Virus record (IMG/VR): IMGVR_UViG_3300008267_005679
Coordinates: 1-21,283 of that record
From: a virus
Strand: one strand, 5' to 3'
DNA length: 21,283 bases
Shown in pieces: positions 3,144-21,283 of the stretch (the stretch's first letter is position 1; every line of letters begins with the position of its first letter). The notes under the pieces were generated by a model. The model worked only from the letters and a program-made list of their open reading frames with translations, had not been told where the DNA came from and ran no database searches. Both the position numbers and the translations under genes were made by a program.

Positions 3144-3764
3144 ATGAAACTAACATATGCCATAACAGTTTGTAATGAATTTGTAGAAATTCAACGTTTA
3201 GTGTCCTTTTTGCTTCGACACAAACGGTTACAAGATAATATAGTAGTATTATATGATGAAGCAAATGGTGATCCTGCTGTGGAAGAATATCTAAGGACCC
3301 ATTCCTTAAACGAGGAATTTGTATGGTTCGGTGCAAAATTTGATAATCATTTTGCAAATTGGAAGAATAAATTAAGTAGTCTCTGTTCGGGAGACTACAT
3401 CTTCCAAATCGATGCAGACGAGATGATCGATGAATATCAATGTAAACTTATCCCAGAAGTTATAGAATCAAATAATGTTGATGTTATACGAGTTCCTAGA
3501 ATCAATACAGTTAATGGTTTAACAGAAGAACATATTGCTAAATGGGGATGGCAAGTTAATGAACGAGGATGGATAAACTTTCCGGATTATCAATGGAGAA
3601 TATATCGAAACTCCGATACGATTTTTTGGGAAGGAAAAGTTCATGAGCAATTAACCGGTTATACATCGATTGCACATTTACCTGCAGACATTGATTGGGC
3701 GTTAACTCATCACAAAACGATAGACCGACAAGAAAAACAAAATAATTATTATAATACATTATGA
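3144..3764 (+). CDS. GT2-family glycosyltransferase, short form
   Basis: This 206-aa protein has a GT-A fold of the GT2 type. It starts LTYAITVCNE, the usual first strand with an Asn-Glu turn. A donor- and metal-binding DxD motif occurs as IDADEM with D90 and D92. Later W/R/H-containing stretches (QWRIYRNSDTIFWEGKVHE) resemble the acceptor region of GT2 enzymes related to lipopolysaccharide core biosynthesis. It is shorter than many GT2 enzymes and seems to be one catalytic domain with no membrane segment. It is followed after 4 overlapping bases by the LpxA-like reading frame. A strong predicted hairpin sits inside the coding sequence at 3359-3407. Confidence 0.78.
   Translation: MKLTYAITVCNEFVEIQRLVSFLLRHKRLQDNIVVLYDEANGDPAVEEYLRTHSLNEEFVWFGAKFDNHFANWKNKLSSLCSGDYIFQIDADEMIDEYQCKLIPEVIESNNVDVIRVPRINTVNGLTEEHIAKWGWQVNERGWINFPDYQWRIYRNSDTIFWEGKVHEQLTGYTSIAHLPADIDWALTHHKTIDRQEKQNNYYNTL
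3359..3407 (+). other. Predicted stem-loop inside GT2 coding sequence
   Basis: An 8-bp perfect inverted repeat, GTAGTCTC (3376-3383) and GAGACTAC (3391-3398), encloses a 7-base loop. An outer 7-bp pair, TTGGAAG (3359-3365) with CTTCCAA (3401-3407), can stack below it with a 10-base bulge on the left and 2 bases on the right. No U-tract follows, so it is not a classic terminator. It may only be chance in coding DNA, but the length and GC content stand out here. Confidence 0.45.
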
Positions 3765-3955
3765 ATATAATACATCCAACTGCGATTATTGGTGACTTCG
3801 TTATATTAGGCGATAATAATTATATTGGTCCATATTGTTATATAACTGGTAATACGGTTATTGGTGATAATAATAGATTCGAAGCTTTTTGTACTATCGG
3901 AACATCGGCACAAGACAGATCTGTATATATAACAACGAGCCACAACATCCGGTAA
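3761..3955 (+). CDS. LpxA-like acyltransferase, N-terminal part (frameshifted)
   Basis: This 64-aa frame is the N-terminal part of a left-handed beta-helix (hexapeptide) acyltransferase. It begins IIHPTAIIGDFVILGDNNYI, then continues IGPYCYITGNTVIGDNNRFE and CTIGTSAQD. This is the order seen in LpxA (UDP-GlcNAc O-acyltransferase), where 'G.PQD' precedes the active-site coils. The frame ends at TAA in 3953-3955, while the rest of the same protein continues in the -1 frame. A (TA)4 repeat at 3924-3931 is the likely site. Removing one TA gives a continuous reading frame (R-S-V-Y-N-N-E-P-Q-H-P). It could be a real inactivating or phase-variable mutation, a programmed -1 frameshift, or a sequencing error. 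It overlaps the stop of the upstream GT2 by 4 bases. Confidence 0.6.
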   Translation: MNIIHPTAIIGDFVILGDNNYIGPYCYITGNTVIGDNNRFEAFCTIGTSAQDRSVYITTSHNIR

Positions 3956-4380
3956 TAATTGGTAATAATAACGTATTTCGAGAATATTGCCAGGTACATT
4001 CGGGAACTAAAAATACAACTATAGTGTCTGATAATTGTTTACTACTAGTTAATTCACATATATCACACGATTCAGTTATAGAAAATAATGTAACTATAGG
4101 TAATAATACCGTATTAGGTGGACATACATTAATAATGGAAGGTGCTAATATCGGAATTGGTTCGCTTATACACCAAAATAGTATTATTGGTGCATATTCA
4201 ATGGTAGGAATGGGGTCGGTTATCACAAAACACAAAAAAATAGAACCAGGACATGTAGTAGCCGGAAATCCTGTAAAATTTATTAAAATTAATCAAATTG
4301 GATTATCTAGAAATAACATTTCTGATGACCAATTACATGATTTACAAAAAAGATATAATACAATATATGAAACAATATAA
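3889..4380 (+). CDS. LpxA-like acyltransferase, C-terminal part (frameshifted)
   Basis: This frame is open from the ATG at 3889, but meaningful homology begins near 3928, where it continues the preceding fragment. It reads VIIGNNNVFREYCQVHSGT, then NSHISHDSVIENN, GGHTLI, HQNSIIGAYSMVG and AGNPVKFIKINQIGLSR. These match LpxA blocks in order, including the H-x-x-H-D segment that holds the catalytic histidine in bacterial LpxA. The joined protein would be about 205 aa, shorter than the roughly 260 aa of LpxA, and it lacks most of the C-terminal helical domain. LpxA itself acylates UDP-GlcNAc in lipid A synthesis. A phage copy next to a WlbA-like dehydrogenase could instead acylate an amino sugar. 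The end overlaps the dehydrogenase start by 14 bases. Confidence 0.6.
   Translation: MYYRNIGTRQICIYNNEPQHPVIIGNNNVFREYCQVHSGTKNTTIVSDNCLLLVNSHISHDSVIENNVTIGNNTVLGGHTLIMEGANIGIGSLIHQNSIIGAYSMVGMGSVITKHKKIEPGHVVAGNPVKFIKINQIGLSRNNISDDQLHDLQKRYNTIYETI
3924..3931 (+). repeat. (TA)4 dinucleotide repeat at the LpxA frameshift
   Basis: Four TA units lie exactly where the acyltransferase reading frame switches. Loss of one unit (or gain of one base) restores an open frame across the whole gene. Short tandem repeats of this kind can change length by slippage during replication or by sequencing error. Confidence 0.5.
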
Positions 4381-10605: not shown

Positions 10606-12582
10606 ATGAGACAAATAGATATTCTTATCCAAAATCAATTACGAACTCTATTAAAAGAAGAAGTTCACCAAACATTCCAATCAAATCAAACACCAGGTGA
10701 CCCATGGCCTAATAATGTAGTAAAAAATTGGAAAGGCGAAGCTGCTAAATTGCAAAAATATTTAGAAAAAATTAAAGCATCTAAATTTAATATCGGTTCC
10801 AATCAATATGGGTTAGCAGAACATCCGATATATGTATTAAATTGGAAACGCGAAACATATTGGTTTTATGATACACATGAAGTATTTTCATTAGGTGGTG
10901 GTAAAAATGGTAGAAATTTAGGATATGATGTAGTAAACGAAAATGGCGAAGAACGTTTAAATTTATATAAATTAGTTGACGACCGCAATGAAGATACATT
11001 GATAGGATACTATACATGGACTGGATCTGATTTAGTATGGACTGCAAAAGTAGAGAAACCAAAATCTGAAACAGAAGTTATCGACAAAATCCATATGGCA
11101 TTGGACATAGCAGGTTTCATCCCAGTAGTAGGTGATGCTGTCGATTTAGTTCATGCAGTTTGGTATTTTTATGAAGGCAATATATTTGAAGGAATATTAT
11201 CTAGTTTAGCAGTTATACCAGTTGTTGGATCATTTATTGCTGCGAGTGGTAAAGCTGTAGTTCGTGCAATGAAAGGCTTAAATAAAGTAGATGATATGGG
11301 TGAAGTTGTATTAGGAATCGTTAAAAAGATGAATCCTACTAAAGCAGAAATGGCACTTGTTAGTCGCGGTTTAGCAGATGTTTATGATAAAGTTGGAAGC
11401 AGCAAGATGCTTAAAGATTTAGTTGGATCATCAACTATAGATAATATATTAAAACAACTAGATAAAGCTAGAAAAAAATTAGATGGTCTAGATTTAGATA
11501 AATTACAAGATATATCAAAACAACAAGCTAATTTAAGTAAAGGAATTGATGCAACTACCGATGCATCTAAACTTACCGATAAAGCAACTGCAGCAACTGG
11601 TATATTAGGAAAAGGTAGAATTAACAAAGAAATACGAAAAATATCTTCATTAACATATGAAGCTAGTGCTAAAGAAACCGGAAATCTATTAGTTAAGTTA
11701 GTAAACGGATTACCAGCTGGCAGAAAAATAACTTCGGGGTTAGGTGGACTATTTCAATTAGGCGTTAAACCAAAAAATGCTCAAGCACTAGTAAATACAA
11801 TGGCACGTGGTTTTATAAAACGTGTTAAACAAGATCCAGACAAATTATTATTAATAATAAAAACGTCAAACAAATTACCAGTTAATACATATGAACCGTT
11901 ATTGAAAAATATGAACCGTTTGCTGAAAAAATCACAAAAAAATATGGATATAGATTCAATACGAAAATATGCAAAAAACATAACTACAGATACTGCTGCT
12001 GGGATGAAAAAGTTTAAACTAGATGATTTAACTGATGCAGAAATTACTAGTATGTTAACATCTGGTGCGGTTAAAATAAATCCGAAGGCTTTGGAAAAAG
12101 TAGATGCAGACGGATTACGTAATTTAATGAGTAATGTTGATCCAAAACAATTTGCAACTATGTCTGATACTATTGCAAAACATGCAATCGATAATGATAA
12201 TCCATTTTGGAATAGTATGTTATCAGATCCACAATCTAAATTAAAAGCGTGGATTTGGCCTGGTGATTTTAAAGGAGCACAGGACATGTTAATGGCAAAT
12301 TTTAATGATGTTAGAAAATGGGCTGATATTGTATATAACGAAGTTTCTGCCGCAGTTGGAGATACAGTCGTTGATGAAAAATTACCTGGTTTAGTTCCGG
12401 ATAGTCCGAGACGAGAAGCTTTTATATATCCTGCAGTTAAAAAAGGAATGAAAAAATACGCTCCGGATACATATGGTATGGTTAAAGGAACTATTGGTAA
12501 AGATAGTATAATATCAAACATAGTACCAATTGGATTACCAGATGAGAGTATGGCAGCATACGATCCAACTAAAAGTGTATAA
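10606..12582 (+). CDS. Large putative internal/ejection protein with pre-toxin-like hydrophobic hairpin
   Basis: This 658-aa protein has no overall family I recognise. Residues 1-20 (MRQIDILIQNQLRTLLKEEV) form a basic amphipathic helix ending L16-K17-E18, which fits the L-x-E cut site of a T4-like prohead protease. Residues about 166-222 read LDIAGFIPVVGDAVDLVHAV, WYFYEGNIFEGILSSLAVIP and VVGSFIAASGKAV. This is the paired G-x-x-P-x-x-G-D hydrophobic module found before the toxin domain in many bacterial polymorphic toxins. The rest is Lys-, Asp- and Leu-rich and likely helical, with no visible catalytic motif. I infer a capsid-internal protein that may insert in a membrane during DNA ejection; a toxin-related role is possible but unproven. 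The next gene begins 2 bases downstream. Confidence 0.6.
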   Translation: MRQIDILIQNQLRTLLKEEVHQTFQSNQTPGDPWPNNVVKNWKGEAAKLQKYLEKIKASKFNIGSNQYGLAEHPIYVLNWKRETYWFYDTHEVFSLGGGKNGRNLGYDVVNENGEERLNLYKLVDDRNEDTLIGYYTWTGSDLVWTAKVEKPKSETEVIDKIHMALDIAGFIPVVGDAVDLVHAVWYFYEGNIFEGILSSLAVIPVVGSFIAASGKAVVRAMKGLNKVDDMGEVVLGIVKKMNPTKAEMALVSRGLADVYDKVGSSKMLKDLVGSSTIDNILKQLDKARKKLDGLDLDKLQDISKQQANLSKGIDATTDASKLTDKATAATGILGKGRINKEIRKISSLTYEASAKETGNLLVKLVNGLPAGRKITSGLGGLFQLGVKPKNAQALVNTMARGFIKRVKQDPDKLLLIIKTSNKLPVNTYEPLLKNMNRLLKKSQKNMDIDSIRKYAKNITTDTAAGMKKFKLDDLTDAEITSMLTSGAVKINPKALEKVDADGLRNLMSNVDPKQFATMSDTIAKHAIDNDNPFWNSMLSDPQSKLKAWIWPGDFKGAQDMLMANFNDVRKWADIVYNEVSAAVGDTVVDEKLPGLVPDSPRREAFIYPAVKKGMKKYAPDTYGMVKGTIGKDSIISNIVPIGLPDESMAAYDPTKSV

Positions 12583-13140: not shown

Positions 13141-15311
13141 TGGGTTTGTTAAATAAATCAGGAATTGGTACAGGTGCTACTATAGAATCATCGCATGTTA
13201 CTAACATATATGATGCATTAAACGGTACAGGATCATATGAAGTAGTAGCAACCGGTTCATTTACCGGTACGTTTGATGGTACGTTTACGGGAACGGCAAC
13301 TACATCATCATTTGCAATATCATCATCGCAATCGGTATCATCATCATATGTTAACACATTAACACAAGAAGTAAATATATCAGGTTCGCTTCGATTACAT
13401 AAAACAACTAGACCAACACCTGATTCTACATCAACATATTTATTTGTTAGTAATTCTGCCGATCAAGGTGATACAAACCAATATGATTTATATTATACTC
13501 ATAACAATTATGATTTTAATATGGGGTGGTATGAATCTAAATTGGATACTGGTATAAAATGGGGTGGGGTAGTAACATATTCTGGATCTACAATATATGT
13601 TACTCCAGGTTGTGGTATCATAACAAATCACAATTCTTTAACAACACAGAATGGAGATACAGAAGTTACTACGGTTAATTGGGGTGCAATAACTGCTAGT
13701 GCTACATATCTAACTACATCACAAGTTTCATACTTATTAATAGATCAAAATGGATCATTGTTGCAACATACATCTCCATTTACTCCACAAGAATACAATG
13801 AAAAATTTCCATTAGGATATATATTTTCATTAACCACATCTAGTATTAGTACTTATGCAGATGCACGAGTAACTACATATGGTAATGATGAACAACAATA
13901 TCAATTTATTCGTTCATTTGGTCCTTTAAAGATCAAAGGATATGATATCACAGCACAAACATCTAGTTTAAAATTAAGTATAGCAGGTGGTAGAACATAT
14001 TGCGCCGGCGGATTCTATAGTCAAAATCCAGATGAACCATCCATATATGATTCAACTGCGATCGCAACTGGTAGTTTAATTAGAATATATCGAGACCCAG
14101 CTGCAATTGGTAGTTTTAAAGCTGCACTTAGTTCAAGTGGACAGCCATATCGAGATATAGATCCAACTAAATGGGATGATGGAACAGGTACATTAGCAAG
14201 TGTCGGAGCAAGCGAATGGACAATCCAACGTTTATTTCACGGACCGGTAAATGGCGTAACATATGTGTATTATGGTCAAAATAAATATGCAAGTTTAGAT
14301 GCCGCTGTACAAAATTTAGCAACTGATTCATTTGCGGAATCTGATACTAGTATAATTGCATTGCCATTTATTGGTTATGTTATATGTAAAGGCGATACTA
14401 CTGATTTGAGTAATACTACTAATAATCGAATCATCAATGCTGGATTATTCCGTAATACTGCAGGTTCATCTGGAGGTGGTGGTGCTAGTGCAACCAATTT
14501 AGATTCTTTAAGTGATGTTGCTATTACATCGGCAGCAAATGGTCAAACCATTATATATGATGCAGGTAACTGGATAAACAAAAACATATTTCCATATACT
14601 GGCTCAGCTACAATTACCGGATCGTTAACTGTTAATGGTAGCATATCAGCATCATCATTTACCGGATCATTATTTGGAACTGCATCTTTCGTCACTACTG
14701 CACAAACAGCTAGTTATGTTTTAAATGCAGTATCAGCATCTAGATCCATTACATCATCATTTGCTATAACGGCATCTCACGCAATAACATCATCTTACAT
14801 TGCTGCAAGTTCGTTAACACAAAATATTAGTATCACAGGATCATTGATCGTATCGGGGTCTGGTTTACAAACTAATAACGCAATTATAGTTTCAATGCCA
14901 TCGGCTTCAGCTTCACAACAATATGGTGTGGCAGTATTTAAATATAAACAATTTACCTATAATGCAGATCAAGCAAAAATATATGAAGATGATTATATTC
15001 GTTTAAGTTATGATACTAGTGGAGCAGATCCAGAAGTTTATGTATTACAAAATCCAACTACCGGTCGTATGCAGTGTGTTACATTTAGTACTAAATTTCC
15101 TAGTTCAACTGTAGCAATTGATGGTATTACTAGTTTATCATTAACAGATATTTGGCCAAATGGTATTGGAAGTGATGAAGTATTAACATCATATATAACT
15201 GCAGGATTAGATCCAACATATCCATATTATATAGTTACTTGGTATAGAACTAATACAACATATGGTGGAAATATCAGTGTAGTAGTGCATCGTTATTCAA
15301 CTAACGTATAA
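13140..15311 (+). CDS. Tail-fibre-like structural protein with Ser/Thr/Gly repeats
   Basis: This 723-aa protein looks like a phage tail fibre or host-recognition protein. The N-terminal ESSHVTNIYDALNGTGSYEV is a typical attachment-region start. It is followed by short repeats of the form TGSFTGTFDGTFTGTATTSS and SSSQSVSSSYV, and a second repeat region (TGSLFGTASFVTTAQTASYV, SSFAITASHAITSSYI) at about residues 485-560. Such 'GS-F-G-TAS-x-A' units form thin trimeric beta fibres. Between them, residues about 100-440 form a larger domain with Tyr, Trp and Gly. The C-terminal ~140 residues (QYGVAVFKYKQFTYNADQ onward) are not repetitive and are the likely receptor-binding tip. No chaperone domain or catalytic motif is seen. 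Host attachment is inferred from this architecture. Confidence 0.8.
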   Translation: MGLLNKSGIGTGATIESSHVTNIYDALNGTGSYEVVATGSFTGTFDGTFTGTATTSSFAISSSQSVSSSYVNTLTQEVNISGSLRLHKTTRPTPDSTSTYLFVSNSADQGDTNQYDLYYTHNNYDFNMGWYESKLDTGIKWGGVVTYSGSTIYVTPGCGIITNHNSLTTQNGDTEVTTVNWGAITASATYLTTSQVSYLLIDQNGSLLQHTSPFTPQEYNEKFPLGYIFSLTTSSISTYADARVTTYGNDEQQYQFIRSFGPLKIKGYDITAQTSSLKLSIAGGRTYCAGGFYSQNPDEPSIYDSTAIATGSLIRIYRDPAAIGSFKAALSSSGQPYRDIDPTKWDDGTGTLASVGASEWTIQRLFHGPVNGVTYVYYGQNKYASLDAAVQNLATDSFAESDTSIIALPFIGYVICKGDTTDLSNTTNNRIINAGLFRNTAGSSGGGGASATNLDSLSDVAITSAANGQTIIYDAGNWINKNIFPYTGSATITGSLTVNGSISASSFTGSLFGTASFVTTAQTASYVLNAVSASRSITSSFAITASHAITSSYIAASSLTQNISITGSLIVSGSGLQTNNAIIVSMPSASASQQYGVAVFKYKQFTYNADQAKIYEDDYIRLSYDTSGADPEVYVLQNPTTGRMQCVTFSTKFPSSTVAIDGITSLSLTDIWPNGIGSDEVLTSYITAGLDPTYPYYIVTWYRTNTTYGGNISVVVHRYSTNV
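13251..13350 (+). repeat. Low-complexity fibre repeat region 1
   Basis: The DNA repeats short units such as ACCGG(T)T/A, ACGTTT and CATCATC, which encode the Ser/Thr/Gly-rich stalk near the fibre N-terminus. Protein-level repeats of the 'TGTFDGTFTGTA' kind explain it. Confidence 0.6.
14599..14815 (+). repeat. Low-complexity fibre repeat region 2
   Basis: A second set of degenerate Ser/Ala/Thr-rich repeats (TASFVTT, SASRSITSS, ITASHAITSS) lies before the C-terminal tip. CATCATC-type runs recur in the DNA. Repeats of this type can allow recombination between related fibres. Confidence 0.6.
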
Positions 15312-15321
15312 TTAACATAAT

Positions 15322-15525
15322 ATGATATACATAGCAAACATCAAAAAATCTAAAATACAAGAATCGGATAGATTTACTAGAAAAGAATTTATAACCGAAG
15401 CTCATGTCGTAGATGCAATAAATGAAACAGAAGTAAAAGAAAAAATACAGGCATATTATAACAGTTTAACTGTAGTTGGTACTACATATGATATTGATTA
15501 TCAAAGTATATACCCATTGTTATAA
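15322..15525 (+). CDS. Small hypothetical protein downstream of fibre
   Basis: This 67-aa soluble protein is not recognised with confidence. Its form, a first strand (YIANIKKSKIQE), then FITEAHVVDAINETEVKEKI, then a last strand (TYDIDYQSIYPLL), is like small one-domain proteins of the kind seen in DUF4494-type entries from Bacteroidota. It sits between the tail fibre and a Cys-rich protein. I-Q-E at residues 12-14 would fit a protease site, but the sequence before it is not leader-like. A role in fibre assembly is possible. Confidence 0.5.
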   Translation: MIYIANIKKSKIQESDRFTRKEFITEAHVVDAINETEVKEKIQAYYNSLTVVGTTYDIDYQSIYPLL

Positions 15526-16656: not shown

Positions 16657-16658
16657 GA

Positions 16659-16670
16659 TATTTATTAATA
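16659..16670 (+). promoter_or_regulatory. AT-rich motif abutting start of leader gene
   Basis: TATTTATTAATA runs directly into the ATG at 16670, as also seen at 20726-20737. If this were a -10 element for this gene the transcript would be leaderless, so it may instead be part of the translation start region. Confidence 0.25.
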
Positions 16671-17008
16671 TGAAACTATTAAATTTATTATTCGAAGCCA
16701 AAGAAAAGAAATCAAATGATGATTTCGAAGACTTTGCAGAAACTAGAGGTGATGGAGCTGAGAAAATTGCTAATACTGCTAGACAAAAAGGTGGATTAGC
16801 ACTTTTAACGTGGCATCATTTCAAAGTTAAGTTACCATATTATAAAAAAGCTACTAATGGTAAATTTGATTTAAAAGCAGCAAAACAAGAATTTAATAGG
16901 ACTAAATCTAAAATATCTTTAAGTATGAGTCCAATTGAATTTCAAAGAGAAGTAGGTCGTTTAGAAGTATTAGGTGAATTAATAATCCGAGAACAAGGTA
17001 AAAAATGA
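16670..17008 (+). CDS. Leader-bearing protein 1, unknown function
   Basis: This 112-aa protein starts MKLLNLLFEAKEKK, a variant of the shared leader with L7-F8-E9 and then Ala. The mature part would be about 103 aa. It contains GDGAEKIANTARQKGGLALL, TWHHFKVKLPYYKKA and a C-terminal helix (EFQREVGRLEVLGELIIREQ-like). I recall similar proteins in T4-like aquatic phages without a function. It is acidic then basic and probably helical, as many internal head proteins are. It is coupled to the nucleotidyltransferase downstream by ATGA. I infer a capsid-internal protein processed by the prohead protease. Confidence 0.6.
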   Translation: MKLLNLLFEAKEKKSNDDFEDFAETRGDGAEKIANTARQKGGLALLTWHHFKVKLPYYKKATNGKFDLKAAKQEFNRTKSKISLSMSPIEFQREVGRLEVLGELIIREQGKK

Positions 17009-17778
17009 TATCGTTTAAAGTATTATTATCAGAACAATTAGATTTTTCTGGATTCACAATGAATAAAACATTGAATTCAGATATATGGGACGGTATGAAA
17101 CTTCAAACTGAAATTAGAACTAAACTATTAAAGATTGCTCGCGATTACATCAATTCATTGGATATAAAGGTAAAGCTAAAAGATATTACATTTACTGGTA
17201 GTTTAGCAAATTTTAATTGGTCAAAACATTCTGATGTTGATTTACATGTTATAATTGATTTAGGTAATATTGATCACAAAACAGAAATAAAAGATCTATT
17301 AGATATCAAAACGGATTCATGGAATACTAAACACAACATAACTATAAAAGGCTTTGATGTTGAGTTATATTTACAATTGCACGATCAAGAACATCACTCA
17401 ACAGGAGTATATTCGGTATTACACAATGAATGGGTAACTAAACCTAAATTTAAAGAAGTTTCCATTAATAAAAAACAAATAACAAAAAAATACAATAAGA
17501 TTGCTGATACATTTAATGACATCCAATCAGATTATAAAAAACATAAAGATTATTTAGACGTAGTTGATAGATTAGAAGCTTTGCGAGATAAGATTAAAAA
17601 AATGCGTAAAGCTGGTTTAGAAACTAAAGGAGAATTTTCCACTGAAAATATAGTGTTTAAATTAATTCGACGCAATGATATAATGGGAAAACTAAAAGAT
17701 TTATTAACCAAAGCATATGACAAATCAGTTTCAATTGATGAGTCTCATATTGCCAGTTTAACCGAATATGACATATGA
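17005..17778 (+). CDS. Leader-bearing nucleotidyltransferase-fold protein
   Basis: This 257-aa protein joins a leader variant (MISFKVLLSEQL; L8-S9-E10) to a polymerase-beta-type nucleotidyltransferase fold. FTGSLANFNWSKHSDVDLHV has the G65-S66 loop and D77-V-D79, and KGFDVELYL offers a third acidic residue (D118 or E120). All three parts of the metal and NTP site are present, so it is probably active. Such enzymes add nucleotides to RNA, proteins or small molecules; the target is not visible. Residues 155-257 are Lys-rich and helical. It lies in a run of leader proteins with ATGA overlaps on both sides. I infer packaging in the head and possible action on host molecules early in infection. 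Confidence 0.75.
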   Translation: MISFKVLLSEQLDFSGFTMNKTLNSDIWDGMKLQTEIRTKLLKIARDYINSLDIKVKLKDITFTGSLANFNWSKHSDVDLHVIIDLGNIDHKTEIKDLLDIKTDSWNTKHNITIKGFDVELYLQLHDQEHHSTGVYSVLHNEWVTKPKFKEVSINKKQITKKYNKIADTFNDIQSDYKKHKDYLDVVDRLEALRDKIKKMRKAGLETKGEFSTENIVFKLIRRNDIMGKLKDLLTKAYDKSVSIDESHIASLTEYDI

Positions 17779-17807
17779 TACGATTAAAAGATTTATTATT
17801 TGAACAA
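17775..17807 (+). repeat. Leader DNA repeat, copy A
   Basis: The 33 bases coding for residues 1-11 match copies B and C except for codon 6 (GAT here, Asp). The first five codons (ATGATACGATTAAAA) and codons 7-10 (TTATTATTTGAA) are identical in all three. In two leader genes the ATGA also supplies the stop codon of the upstream gene. Confidence 0.8.
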
Positions 17808-18428
17808 ACTAAAACGGTTGTTAAAAAAACACCTACTCAGGCAGTTGCTAAACCATTACAGCCAAATAAGGTAATGGAACCGCAACATATTACGAGAGGT
17901 TTGGAAATTGCAAATAAATTAAAACAACGTGGTTTTACTGATGAGCAAGCAGCTGCAATTACAGGTAACTTCTGGGCAGAGTCTGAATTTAATCCAGCAG
18001 TATCAGGTATGGGTGGGGCAAAGGGATTAATGCAATGGACTGGTAACCGTAAGGCAAATCTAATTAATTATGCAAAGAAACAAGGTAAAGCATGGACAGA
18101 CGAAGATATCCAATTGGATTTTTTAAAACACGAATTATCAGATCCGTGGGAGAAGAGACAATTTGACTCTGGTATGGCTGGTCAAGACGTAGCAGCAAAA
18201 GCAAAGGGGTTCTATTCAAAAAGTGAACGAGCAAATGCACCAGACTCGATAGTAGATCGAATACATGGAGCTCAGGAAATATATAAAAATTTAGTTAATC
18301 CAGCTGCATCTACTAACCAACTCACCAACCCAACTAACACTACAACTAATAGTACAACTCCTGCAACTACTACTACTGAAACTCCTGCAACTACTGCTGC
18401 ACCTACAACTAACCAAAAAACTAAATAA
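17775..18428 (+). CDS. Leader-bearing tail-lysozyme-like protein
   Basis: This 217-aa protein starts MIRLKDLLFEQ, the consensus leader (L8-F9-E10, then Q11). Residues about 38-175 match a phage tail lysozyme fold. TRGLEIANKLKQRGFTDEQA, then AAITGNFWAESEFNPAV with E69 and E71 as likely catalytic Glu, then GAKGLMQWTGNRKANL and RIHGAQEIYKNL. It would cut peptidoglycan. From residue 176 the tail is a low-complexity run of Thr, Pro, Asn and Ala, probably a flexible linker or spacer. The start overlaps the nucleotidyltransferase stop. Domain and leader are seen directly; head packaging is inferred. Confidence 0.8.
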   Translation: MIRLKDLLFEQTKTVVKKTPTQAVAKPLQPNKVMEPQHITRGLEIANKLKQRGFTDEQAAAITGNFWAESEFNPAVSGMGGAKGLMQWTGNRKANLINYAKKQGKAWTDEDIQLDFLKHELSDPWEKRQFDSGMAGQDVAAKAKGFYSKSERANAPDSIVDRIHGAQEIYKNLVNPAASTNQLTNPTNTTTNSTTPATTTTETPATTAAPTTNQKTK

Positions 18429-18431
18429 ACT

Positions 18432-18464
18432 ATGATACGATTAAAAACATTATTATTTGAACAA
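18432..18464 (+). repeat. Leader DNA repeat, copy B
   Basis: Same 33-base leader as copy A with codon 6 changed to ACA (Thr). The identical DNA before and after a single variable codon suggests recent duplication or recombination. Confidence 0.8.
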
Positions 18465-19088
18465 TTCGGCCGAATTGATAGTGAATTAATATTAGCAACT
18501 ACATTGGTACTAGAAGCTGGCGGCGAAGGCGAAACTGGTATGTTAGCAGTAGCACATGTTATTAATAACAGAGCTAAAGAAAATCACAATGGTTGGGGAA
18601 CTAACCCAGTTAAACAGGTATTACAACCATATCAGTTTTCAATGTGGAATGATTATAATGCAGGGACAGAAAAATGGGGTGATGTATTAAAACGTGCTCA
18701 ATCTAGAACATCACAATGGGCATATGCATTTCCATTAGCAAAACAATTGAGATCTAAAACACTATCATCTGCAGATCCAACGAAAAATGCAATATTTTAT
18801 TACAACCCAGTAACGGCAAATGCTGATTCATTAGGATTCACAAAACATCCAGATTATGTACAAACTAAAAAAATTGGTAAACATGTATTTGGTAAATTAG
18901 TTTCTGATGGTGATACCGTAAAGCCTAAGGATAAAAAAAATAATAAAGGTAAAGAGTACTCAGTAAAAGACGGTGAAACATTAGGTGGTATTGCAAATAG
19001 AAATAATACTACCGTTGATGACATCATAGCAAAAAATCCAGGATTAAAACCAAATAATATTAGAGCAGGCCAGAAAATAAAGATATAA
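18432..19088 (+). CDS. Leader-bearing SleB-like cell-wall hydrolase with LysM
   Basis: This 218-aa protein starts MIRLKTLLFEQ, the consensus leader. Residues about 20-160 match the SleB/hydrolase_2 cell-wall hydrolase fold. LATTLVLEAGGEGETGMLAV contains the probable catalytic E28 and the G-E-G-E turn, followed by AHVINNRAKEN, VLQPYQFSMWND and NAIFYYNP, typical blocks of the family. A Lys-rich linker leads to one LysM peptidoglycan-binding domain at about 176-218 (YSVKDGETLGGIANRNNTTV onward). It would cleave peptidoglycan and bind it through LysM. It begins 3 bases after the lysozyme stop, giving two different hydrolases in tandem with the same leader. Confidence 0.82.
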   Translation: MIRLKTLLFEQFGRIDSELILATTLVLEAGGEGETGMLAVAHVINNRAKENHNGWGTNPVKQVLQPYQFSMWNDYNAGTEKWGDVLKRAQSRTSQWAYAFPLAKQLRSKTLSSADPTKNAIFYYNPVTANADSLGFTKHPDYVQTKKIGKHVFGKLVSDGDTVKPKDKKNNKGKEYSVKDGETLGGIANRNNTTVDDIIAKNPGLKPNNIRAGQKIKI

Positions 19089-19113
19089 AATAACTTTGAT
19101 TTGTGTATTGAAT

Positions 19114-19126
19114 TATTTATAATAAA
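19114..19126 (+). promoter_or_regulatory. AT-rich motif with TATAAT box
   Basis: TATTTATAATAAA contains TATAAT at 19118-19123 and lies 18 bases before the ATG of the next gene, in a 56-base gap after the hydrolase. It nearly matches the motif at 15533. Confidence 0.38.
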
Positions 19127-19144
19127 GATAGAAATGATAAAGTT

Positions 19145-19354
19145 ATGGCAGAAACTAAAAATTATATGAACATATTATTTGAGGAATCAATGAAATTGTT
19201 TATAAAGTCTGGCGGAGAATTTCCATCTGATTGGGATACAACTAAAAAACTAACATTTCTAAATGAGAGTTTAAGTTATGCACTAAAACATGAATATTAT
19301 GAACAATGTGGAGTTATTCGTGACTACAAACAACAAATCGAAGAAAAAGGGTAA
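19145..19354 (+). CDS. Small protein with leader-like LFE segment
   Basis: This 69-aa soluble protein is not recognised. It starts MAETKNYMNILFEESMKLFI. L11-F12-E13 recalls the shared leader, and an internal ATG at residue 8 would give MNILFEES, even closer to it. The rest is helical, with FPSDWDTTKKLTFLNESL and YYEQCGVIRDYKQQIEEKG. It could be a small regulator or a further internal protein. The leader resemblance is weak compared with the four good copies. Its last bases overlap the ClpS-like gene. Confidence 0.5.
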   Translation: MAETKNYMNILFEESMKLFIKSGGEFPSDWDTTKKLTFLNESLSYALKHEYYEQCGVIRDYKQQIEEKG

Positions 19355-19619
19355 GTATCAAGTATTTATACTTAATGATACTGTTAATACGTTTTCTAAT
19401 GTAATCGACTCATTACAGAACATCTGTGGGCACAACTATTACCAAGCAGGGCAATGTGCCACCATTACGCATAATGTCGGTAAATGTTCGGTATTCATTG
19501 ATACTTGGGATGAATGTGAATCCGTGGCTGAAGATTTAAAACTCAACGGAATTAATTCTCAGATTGAAAAATATAAAGCAGTTACAAATGATAAAGGCAA
19601 TACAAAAAATTCTAAATAA
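19320..19619 (+). CDS. clpS: ClpS-like N-degron adaptor
   Basis: This is a 99-aa ClpS-type adaptor from a GTG start that has a GGAG site 6 bases upstream; an ATG at 19290 would add ten residues that have no counterpart in the family. ClpS binds N-degron proteins and delivers them to ClpAP. FILNDTVNTFSNVIDSL matches the N-terminal block: Asn19 and Asp20 keep the pair that holds the substrate amino group, but the next Asp is Thr21. ICGHNYYQAGQCATITHNVG has the conserved His (H51), followed by GKCSV. The 'ND.VNTF..VI' and 'QA.QCA.I.H..GKC' pattern resembles Bacteroidota ClpS. The phage may redirect host proteolysis. The downstream small gene overlaps its end. Confidence 0.75.
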   Translation: MTTNNKSKKKGKYQVFILNDTVNTFSNVIDSLQNICGHNYYQAGQCATITHNVGKCSVFIDTWDECESVAEDLKLNGINSQIEKYKAVTNDKGNTKNSK

Positions 19620-19806
19620 TTTTCGTATTGGGGTATTACATGCAACATATCACCGATGTATGCGCAAAGCTGTAAAAGCTAGCGAAGAGAAAAATCTAGT
19701 TGAATTTAAAAAGTATATATACCAAGCAGAAGATGCTTGGCGTAAAATAGTTATAATAACAGAAAAACAAAAACAATGGGAAGAAAGTCAGCACACACAG
19801 GATTAA
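19588..19806 (+). CDS. Small basic helical hypothetical protein
   Basis: This 72-aa protein is not recognised. I start it at the ATG of MIKAIQKILNNFRIGV, which overlaps the ClpS end; a TTG at 19564 is possible but less likely. It is Lys-rich and helical with RKAVKASEEKNLVEFKKYIY and EDAWRKIVIITEKQ. Nothing indicates catalytic activity. Its stop lies 31 bases inside the next gene. The position between ClpS and other small genes suggests a host-takeover or regulatory accessory factor, which is only a guess. Confidence 0.5.
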   Translation: MIKAIQKILNNFRIGVLHATYHRCMRKAVKASEEKNLVEFKKYIYQAEDAWRKIVIITEKQKQWEESQHTQD

Positions 19807-20162
19807 GTCCAAAGGATAGATCCATTAACCTTATGGATCAATTCATAAAAAAGAATTCAGTAAAAACAAAGAATGTTCCACTTCTTCCAGCAAGAAGAAA
19901 AGATCCAAACGTACCGATCGAATTGTGGCCATTCCAAGATCAAATTGATTATTATGAAAACCGTACAGAAGCTGACAAATTCAATGATAAATTCACTAAC
20001 TATGCAGATTGGTTCAATGAAGTAAGAAAACAATCTAAAGTATATCCTAGTACATTTATTAGTTTCGTTGCAGATAAAAAAGACTTAATGAAATCTATGT
20101 ATACTAAGAAATGTTGGCCTAAAGAAGCAGTTCGCGAATTACAAAAACTAGGTGTATATTAA
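19776..20162 (+). CDS. Hypothetical basic protein
   Basis: This 128-aa soluble protein is not recognised. It starts MGRKSAHTGLSPKDRSINLM, is basic at the N-terminus, and contains VPLLPARRKDPNVPIELWPF followed by acidic-aromatic helices (DQIDYYENRTEADKF, DKFTNYADWFNEVR). The C-terminus (KKCWPKEAVRELQKLGVY) is basic. The pattern could suit a nucleic-acid or protein-binding factor, but no motif supports this. It overlaps the previous gene and sits 3 bases before the HNH-like gene. Confidence 0.5.
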   Translation: MGRKSAHTGLSPKDRSINLMDQFIKKNSVKTKNVPLLPARRKDPNVPIELWPFQDQIDYYENRTEADKFNDKFTNYADWFNEVRKQSKVYPSTFISFVADKKDLMKSMYTKKCWPKEAVRELQKLGVY

Positions 20163-20165
20163 ACA

Positions 20166-20723
20166 ATGAGCGATCAACCTCAATATAAGTATATTTATGG
20201 TATTGGTAAACAACCAATGAATATATCTGAGTCTGAAATCAGATATGCAATTGACAATACCAAATCTAATGCTGAGGCCGCACGTTTCATGAAGGTTTCT
20301 TTTAGTACATGGAAGAAATATGCTAAAATGTATGTTGATAGAGAAACTGGTAAGACTTTATATGATATGCATACCAATCAAGAAGGTCATGGTATCAAAA
20401 AGGCTTCAATTCGTGCAACTGCAGGAATGTATAGCATAGACGCTATATTAGAAGGAAAACATCCTAATTATCCTAGTTGGAAACTTAGAAATCGTTTATT
20501 GGCATTAGGTATATTTTCAGAGCAATGTAGTTGTTGTGGATATGCAGAACGCAGAGTAACAGATGATACAGTTCCATTACTATTAGATCATATCGACGGA
20601 GATGATACAAACCATTGTATAGAAAATTTACAATTGCTTTGCTTAAATTGTTTCTATATGCAAAGTGGTAATCCATTTAATAAAGACAAAGAACATTTTT
20701 GGAATTATAATATGTTAGGTTAG
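20166..20723 (+). CDS. HNH-like zinc-binding protein, last His changed
   Basis: This 185-aa protein has two parts. Residues about 35-60 (TKSNAEAARFMKVSFSTWKK) look like a helix-turn-helix DNA-binding segment. Residues 121-165 form an HNH-like module: C121-x2-C124 and C159-x2-C162 would hold a structural zinc, and LLLDHIDGDDTNHCIENLQL supplies D141-H142 and N154. The position after C162, normally His in active HNH nucleases, is Phe163 (LCLNCFYM). It may therefore be a DNA-binding protein that has lost cutting activity, or a variant seen in many T4-like phages. It has no intron or insertion context in the window that would mark it as a homing enzyme. Confidence 0.66.
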   Translation: MSDQPQYKYIYGIGKQPMNISESEIRYAIDNTKSNAEAARFMKVSFSTWKKYAKMYVDRETGKTLYDMHTNQEGHGIKKASIRATAGMYSIDAILEGKHPNYPSWKLRNRLLALGIFSEQCSCCGYAERRVTDDTVPLLLDHIDGDDTNHCIENLQLLCLNCFYMQSGNPFNKDKEHFWNYNMLG

Positions 20724-20725
20724 TA

Positions 20726-20737
20726 TATTTATTAATA
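20726..20737 (+). promoter_or_regulatory. AT-rich motif abutting start of last leader gene
   Basis: TATTTATTAATA runs into the ATG at 20737, the same arrangement as at 16659. Two leader genes thus share both the upstream motif and the coding leader, so the pair may have moved together. Confidence 0.28.
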
Positions 20738-20769
20738 TGATACGATTAAAACACTTATTATTTGAACAG
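20737..20769 (+). repeat. Leader DNA repeat, copy C
   Basis: Same 33-base leader as copies A and B with codon 6 changed to CAC (His) and the final codon CAG instead of CAA. It is 2.3 to 3 kb away from the other two copies. Confidence 0.8.
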
Positions 20770-21283
20770 TCAGGATTTAATGCTGCTCGCATAGCTAAAC
20801 AAATTTATGACTCCAAAGGATACGTTTGGGATGATGAACGAGGTGCGATACAAATAATAAAACAAAATATTAAAGATCTAAAACAATATACTGCAGTAAC
20901 TAAACAAATTCAGAAATTAGCCGGATCTGGTCTAGGTCAATTTTTGCATAGTTTTATGAATCCAAACGACTTAATTGAAGTTGGTAAATATTTGATAAAA
21001 ATATTACCGTCATCTGATTGGGCATGGACTGTAAAACAAGTTATTACATGGGAAGATGTAATAGCAGAAGTTAGTGCGAGAAGAAGAGGAGTTGCGTTTG
21101 GTAGTGAACGTCGTCCATCTGAATATCAAACAGTAAAAGAAATATTCGATGAGTGGGAAAAGAACCCTGAATCTAAAAAAACGGATATATTATATAAATT
21201 GTTAACTGATCCTAATTTATATGGTTCAAAATTAGATGTTTTAGTTAGAGATTTCCAAAGACATGAAACACACGCTGGATTAG
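20737..21283 (+). CDS. Leader-bearing protein 5, 3' end cut by window
   Basis: An open frame of 182 codons runs off the right edge. It begins MIRLKHLLFEQSG, a full copy of the shared leader (L8-F9-E10, then Q11). The following sequence includes AARIAKQIYDSKGYVWDDER, QKLAGSGLGQFLHSF, KYLIKILPSSDWAWTVKQVI and a basic SARRRGVAFGSERRPSEY. It ends in the window with RDFQRHETHAGL. I do not recognise a domain. The mixed helical and basic content would suit a virion-internal protein. The gene is preceded by the TATTTATTAATA motif and no ribosome-binding site is clear. Confidence 0.65.
   Translation, partial: MIRLKHLLFEQSGFNAARIAKQIYDSKGYVWDDERGAIQIIKQNIKDLKQYTAVTKQIQKLAGSGLGQFLHSFMNPNDLIEVGKYLIKILPSSDWAWTVKQVITWEDVIAEVSARRRGVAFGSERRPSEYQTVKEIFDEWEKNPESKKTDILYKLLTDPNLYGSKLDVLVRDFQRHETHAGL

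Follow-up and report, generated by a model that had tools for sequence, protein, structure and literature searches.

A ten-residue N-terminal capsid-targeting sequence (CTS) marks the internal proteins of phage T4 (IPI, IPII, IPIII and Alt), where it stands on unrelated bodies, allows cargo to be exchanged and acts together with the prohead protease gp21. The tag has been known for decades, and to our knowledge few of its natural cargoes are known. Mutagenesis of IPIII assigned targeting to CTS residues 4 and 7 and found that residues 8 and 10 permit processing, and gp21 cleaves after L/I-X-E, removing propeptides of 7 to 65 residues (PMC9026906). In the T4 record the cuts read MKTYQEFIAE|A for IPII and IPIII and MAKINELLRE|S for gp24. 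Here we report on a similar leader peptide in a 21,283-base viral fragment, IMG/VR record IMGVR_UViG_3300008267_005679 (guanine-plus-cytosine content 31%; "the window" denotes this whole stretch), which we hold with good confidence to be a T4-type CTS, predicted to bring about the packaging, processing and injection of the proteins carrying it.

A preliminary description of this DNA had read leaders of this kind at the start of five genes with unrelated bodies. All five are present at the positions it gave, and Pfam and PHROG searches bear out the assignment of the bodies:

16670..16696, + strand: leader 1, MKLLNLLFE, predicted cut before A10, on a protein of 112 residues
16697..17008, + strand: body 1, of unknown function, helical and conserved (the whole protein has 487 IMG/VR relatives)
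17005..17034, + strand: leader 2, MISFKVLLSE, predicted cut before Q11
17035..17778, + strand: body 2, nucleotidyltransferase (phrog_36119)
17775..17804, + strand: leader 3, MIRLKDLLFE, predicted cut before Q11
17805..18428, + strand: body 3, muralytic enzyme of the Phage_lysozyme2 family (PF18013, E 8e-29) whose tail is Thr/Pro-rich
18432..18461, + strand: leader 4, MIRLKTLLFE, predicted cut before Q11
18462..19088, + strand: body 4, SleB-like cell wall hydrolase (Hydrolase_2) with LysM (PF07486, 4e-16; PF01476, 2e-13)
20737..20766, + strand: leader 5, MIRLKHLLFE, predicted cut before Q11
20767..21283, + strand: body 5, unknown, extending past the window end

We collected relatives by searching with the whole 16670 protein, which has 487 IMG/VR relatives, and kept 80 contigs. 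In these, a tight leader pattern heads 184 of 1,530 open reading frame (ORF) starts (12%) and follows only 4 of 4,069 internal methionines (0.1%). Because the 80 contigs had been picked by a leader gene, the count was repeated in seven clade genomes that are complete or at least long; the clade is a group of poorly known T4-like phages from water samples, with Flavobacterium phage immuto_2-6A (immuto) and Microcystis phage Mel-JY01 as cultured members. The pattern heads 53 of 1,473 ORFs there versus 12 of 5,175 internal methionines (Fisher p 2e-24), with 5 to 12 matches per genome. Six of the seven (immuto, Mel-JY01 and G021-G024) had been reached via portal or gp21, with no leader used, and give 46/1,294 ORFs versus 8/4,467 internal positions. 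When the L-x-E ending was left out of the pattern and only its front half, M[IV][RSKT][LMF][KRQTSN], was used, 119 of 131 matching ORFs reached [LIV]-x-E within the first 12 residues, as did 3 of the 17 matches at internal positions; among the 12 exceptions are several that nearly fit, e.g., LFLE and IMNE. The abundance of the leader is thus far above chance. Exact leader DNA as the query found three contigs only, and since leader DNA drifts, protein-family routes were used for searching; starting from the nucleotidyltransferase, we reached mainly other large phages, in which the leader is little enriched.

Across 38 non-redundant carriers with glutamate at residue 10, positions 4, 7, 8 and 10 are conserved and 6 and 9 vary freely. 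From residue 11 onward the sequences are no longer conserved (entropy above 3.1 bits), so that E10 is the last conserved residue; residue 2 and part of residues 3-5 were set by the search pattern and are not independent evidence. The conserved positions are exactly the four that matter in the T4 CTS. A register shorter by one residue is seen in 17 aligned homologues of the 16670 protein, where L3, L6, L7 and E9 are invariant and a variable, gapped stretch (residues 10-17) precedes the conserved body. The same profile bears on the idea that the leader is a signal or membrane-anchoring peptide exporting the enzymes. The leader is indeed N-terminal, with a basic start and hydrophobic residues, but these are spaced (4, 7 and 8) and interrupted by polar residues at 5, 6 and mostly 9, a continuous hydrophobic core is absent, and conservation stops at an acidic residue; we regard export as scarcely credible.

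The bodies behind the 38 leaders fall into 18 families by blastp, and judged by sequence the leader is a module across at least 18 unrelated body families. Exchange is visible between individual genomes. In L008, a close relative, the nucleotidyltransferase body is 87-88% identical to that of the window and its leader differs (MKLRSIISE). A single fusion protein fills the lysozyme slot there, combining a lysozyme domain (35% identical) with the LysM that the window encodes in the next gene (66%), and at the 20737 slot a leader stands on a different body. A nucleotidyltransferase homologue in G001 (at 40697; G001 is the 144,950-base record behind L099) lacks the leader. In AlphaFold models of two carriers the leader region has a predicted local distance difference test score (pLDDT) below 50 and lies apart from the better-modelled body.

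Leaders 3, 4 and 5 of the window use the same codons at all shared residues except the last (p ~2e-4 under window codon usage), and two leaders are directly preceded by the same putative promoter/start element:

16658..16669, + strand: ATATTTATTAAT, abutting the ATG of leader 1
20725..20736, + strand: ATATTTATTAAT, abutting the ATG of leader 5

Of 43 leader genes, 9 have the motif TATTAAT directly before the ATG, compared with 8 of 970 others; it usually occurs as ATATTTATTAAT. These features could be explained if the leader acted chiefly at the nucleic-acid level, as a translation-start or promoter sequence that was copied from gene to gene, its protein product being incidental. Yet among 43 copies of the leader of 16670 the amino acid Leu7 never changes, although four codons are in use for it, and residue 4 changes its amino acid freely; Leu7 being kept despite four codons makes selection at the protein level clear. 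Between relatives, moreover, leader DNA diverges while L-x-x-L-L-x-E stays, and the upstream element is absent from most leader genes. A mainly nucleic-acid role is largely refuted already and we consider it very improbable. The identical codons and the shared upstream element together indicate that promoter-like element, start codon and leader seem to move together, which suggests that cargo is changed by cassette swapping. Many leader genes have ATATTTATTAAT immediately before their start codon, both in the window and in upstream regions of G001 and G021-G024. The commonest upstream 8-mer in the clade genomes is ATATTTAT; with respect to T4-like late promoters, elements like it are common upstream of genes genome-wide and of leader genes, and TATAAATA is not common. 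If ATATTTAT is a -10-like element, such transcripts would be nearly leaderless.

A CTS of the T4 type calls for a gp21-like prohead protease, and the preliminary description had named it as the enzyme to look for. It is present in the relatives, as part of a T4-type head cluster (gp21, E 1e-33): gp21-family (S77) proteases are encoded by G001, immuto, Mel-JY01 and the gp21-selected G021-G024. The G001 protein matches Peptidase_S77 (E 1.8e-32) and phrog_207 (2e-56) and lies in a head cluster that also encodes large terminase, portal, major capsid protein and a candidate scaffold resembling gp22. The motifs GELDHP and G[IV]SSRG of the relatives align with GELNHP and GVSSRG of T4 gp21, and we take them to hold the catalytic His and Ser. 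Sites resembling the end of the leader occur in the head proteins themselves. In 70 relatives gp21 contains [SAT]L[NT]E immediately ahead of its own protease domain, the next residue being mostly Q, S or T. The capsid-protein site reads QLVKE|[AS] among relatives of G001, QIVSE|A in the immuto protein and QLISE|A in that of Mel-JY01; in a MAFFT alignment its glutamate falls on that of the T4 gp23 cut, FLTE|A. By analogy with these relatives, the window's own phage presumably encodes gp21 as well.

Pfam supports cargo of several kinds, namely Phage_lysozyme2, Hydrolase_2 with LysM, GH24 lysozyme with LysM, M23 with Phage_lysozyme2, and a zeta-toxin-like kinase (in L059, a less closely related contig reached via the nucleotidyltransferase), and PHROG supports a ParB-like cargo. 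The remaining bodies are of unknown function apart from motifs, HEIEH in a 249-residue family and a glycine-rich kinase-like loop, and the bodies tested against Pfam and PHROGs revealed no similarity to T4 IPI-III or Alt. Since several cargo enzymes are peptidoglycan hydrolases, with tail lysozymes among the PHROG matches, and a large repetitive tail-fibre-like protein is encoded upstream of the window cluster, the leader might instead be an unremoved docking peptide for a tail, baseplate or neck structural protein that recruits enzymes to the outside of the virion or the tail; a docking motif, too, would look like a conserved amphipathic peptide. However, conservation ends at E10 of an L/I-x-E, which matches the site of gp21 itself and nearly matches that of the clade's capsid protein, the conserved positions match the T4 CTS residues one for one, and non-muralytic cargo (ParB-like, zeta-like, nucleotidyltransferase) would be unexpected on tails. 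We therefore judge tail docking unlikely. Muralytic cargo would also fit, by analogy with other phages, ejection proteins that open the peptidoglycan.

Some further cargo families deserve description. The 249-residue leader-bearing family occupies the slot of body 5 in relatives (L179:15644-16393, - strand; others in L095-L174; L008:13229-13975) and has an invariant RHEIEH-x-TQSGWN containing a zincin-like HExxH. No Pfam, PHROG or PDB fold match was obtained for it, nor for the 112-residue body 1 protein; the PDB fold searches with both being empty, no enzyme class is claimed for either. Proteins of the form MIRLKQLLTEI...GRGDNGRVYE were considered as kinases by motif, and profile searches gave no confirmation. 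Three leader-bearing paralogues, MIKLKSLLQEIISDRVWHLT..., lie at L273:11276-13718 (Mel-JY01 60276-62718); with their RVWHLT they resemble ADP-ribosyltransferases (ART) by eye only, and neither Pfam nor PHROG supported that assignment.

The packaging tag first proposed for this locus withstood every computational test that could have failed it (protease, matching sites, T4 positions and modularity) and is the best explanation of the leader. We infer the course of events from T4. During head assembly, the ten-residue peptide, with its hydrophobic residues 4 and 7, would dock its carrier on the scaffolding core so that the carrier is enclosed in the prohead; a gp21-type protease would then cleave behind the L/I-x-E of residues 8-10 and so release the enzyme within the head. 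Upon infection the cargo would exit with the DNA, where muralytic enzymes could aid the opening of peptidoglycan and other enzymes could act on the host. New cargo may be gained when a body is joined to the promoter-start-leader cassette. By analogy, phages of this clade probably pack an interchangeable enzyme set in the head, to be delivered together with the DNA.

Several points weigh against the CTS reading. The 21-kb window fragment contains no head genes, so gp21 is known from relatives only. The capsid-protein site is V/I-x-E, not strictly L/I-x-E, and the residue after the cut (P1'), with I, G, Q and S occurring, varies more than it does in T4. The muralytic cargo could equally be tail-associated. 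A search of the open-licence literature found no virion proteomics for these phages. The same literature yielded no paper describing the leader tag in this clade.

Compared with the T4 system, the clade shares the ten-residue N-terminal peptide on unrelated, exchangeable bodies, the hydrophobic positions 4 and 7, an L/I-x-E that spans 8-10 and a gp21 protease. It differs in that its leader is Leu-rich (MIRLKxLLxE) whereas that of T4 is aromatic (MKTYQEFIAE), in its 5 to 12 pattern-matching carriers per genome, in cargo made up of muralytic and other enzymes instead of small basic proteins, in having a second leader, which is 21 residues long and contains two L-x-E sites, and in a promoter/start element shared as part of the cassette. 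The propeptide of the T4 gp24 vertex protein, MAKINELLRE, has nearly the same pattern and is likewise a short N-terminal propeptide of a head protein (PMC5694885), but it sits on one structural shell protein and not on an enzyme set. Ejection proteins of phiKZ and SPN3US are also head proteins whose N-terminal propeptides are cut after Glu (S-x-E, A-x-E) by a prohead protease (PMC5694885); these propeptides, however, are mostly longer than 100 residues, have another specificity and lack a short tag common to an enzyme set. Polyvalent injected proteins, which are proposed to be packaged and injected, share ParB-like, lysozyme, peptidase and ART domains (PMC5512222), but are large multidomain polypeptides, whereas the clade uses single enzymes, each with its own tag. 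As a tag, the leader is a new, expanded variant of the T4 CTS and introduces no new principle.

A tag that can be read from sequence allows the predicted injected proteome of uncultured T4-like phages to be listed, and dozens of unknown proteins are flagged here as candidate first-contact effectors. With immuto and Mel-JY01 in culture, the prediction is open to direct test. Their predicted carriers include the immuto proteins at 112261 (MRLLELLRE, cut before A10), 103366 (MISIYNILKE, before V11) and 24569 (MIKLIDLLTE, before S11) and Mel-JY01 60276 (MIKLKSLLQE, before I11). The tag is also a candidate means of putting proteins into the heads of phages whose host bacteria are out of reach for T4.

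In G021-G023, about ten genes with varied bodies carry the second, longer leader, which ends in LLAENMRRFGTKNL[SNHK]E or close variants. Most copies have two L-x-E motifs; the form is (LL/IL)(A/S)ENMRRFGTKNLxE or similar:

L280:16011-17364, - strand: second leader
L284:9268-12873, + strand: second leader
L294:1407-1907 and 15124-15510, + strand: second leader
L295:3479-3916, + strand: second leader
L301:4342-4617, - strand: second leader
L304:14935-15630, + strand: second leader

A tblastn search found no match in cultured phages, the 24-residue query being a weak one. With low confidence, this leader may represent a second tag class. More speculatively, the whole aquatic T4-like clade might use two classes of tag, a 10-residue single-site and a 21-residue ENMRRFGTKNL double-site form, to sort into the head a large stock of enzymes that is exchanged rapidly, promoter, start codon and tag moving as one recombination cassette; we put this forward tentatively, as a possibility we doubt more than we favour.

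Aromatic leaders in the style of T4 (MKTFQDFLEE, MKRFLQFLSEA and MKSFLEFISEA) occur on unrelated proteins, annotated as hypothetical or as cytidyltransferase, of the T4-like Synechococcus phages DSL-LC02 and DSL-LC03, and are probably the same tag in Kyanoviridae:

L010:9795-9968: leader protein
L010:18863-19942: leader protein
L011:15045-15317: leader protein

Within the window, one further gene may carry the leader motif behind a short extension, which we note as a lead only:

10606..10659, + strand: possible sixth leader, N-terminally extended, MRQIDILIQNQLRTLLKE (then E), on a 658-residue protein

Its homologues in L008 and G001 also have LLSE or LLTE near the N-terminus. At 19145-19354, MAETKNYMNILFEES has the leader-like spacing Y-x-x-I-L-x-E at residues 7-13, and its L008 homologue reads HMNLLFE; this could be due to chance. 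Elsewhere, at 3761-4380, a hexapeptide-repeat acyltransferase-like protein seems to be split into overlapping frames (3761-3955 and 3889-4380), as if frameshifted.

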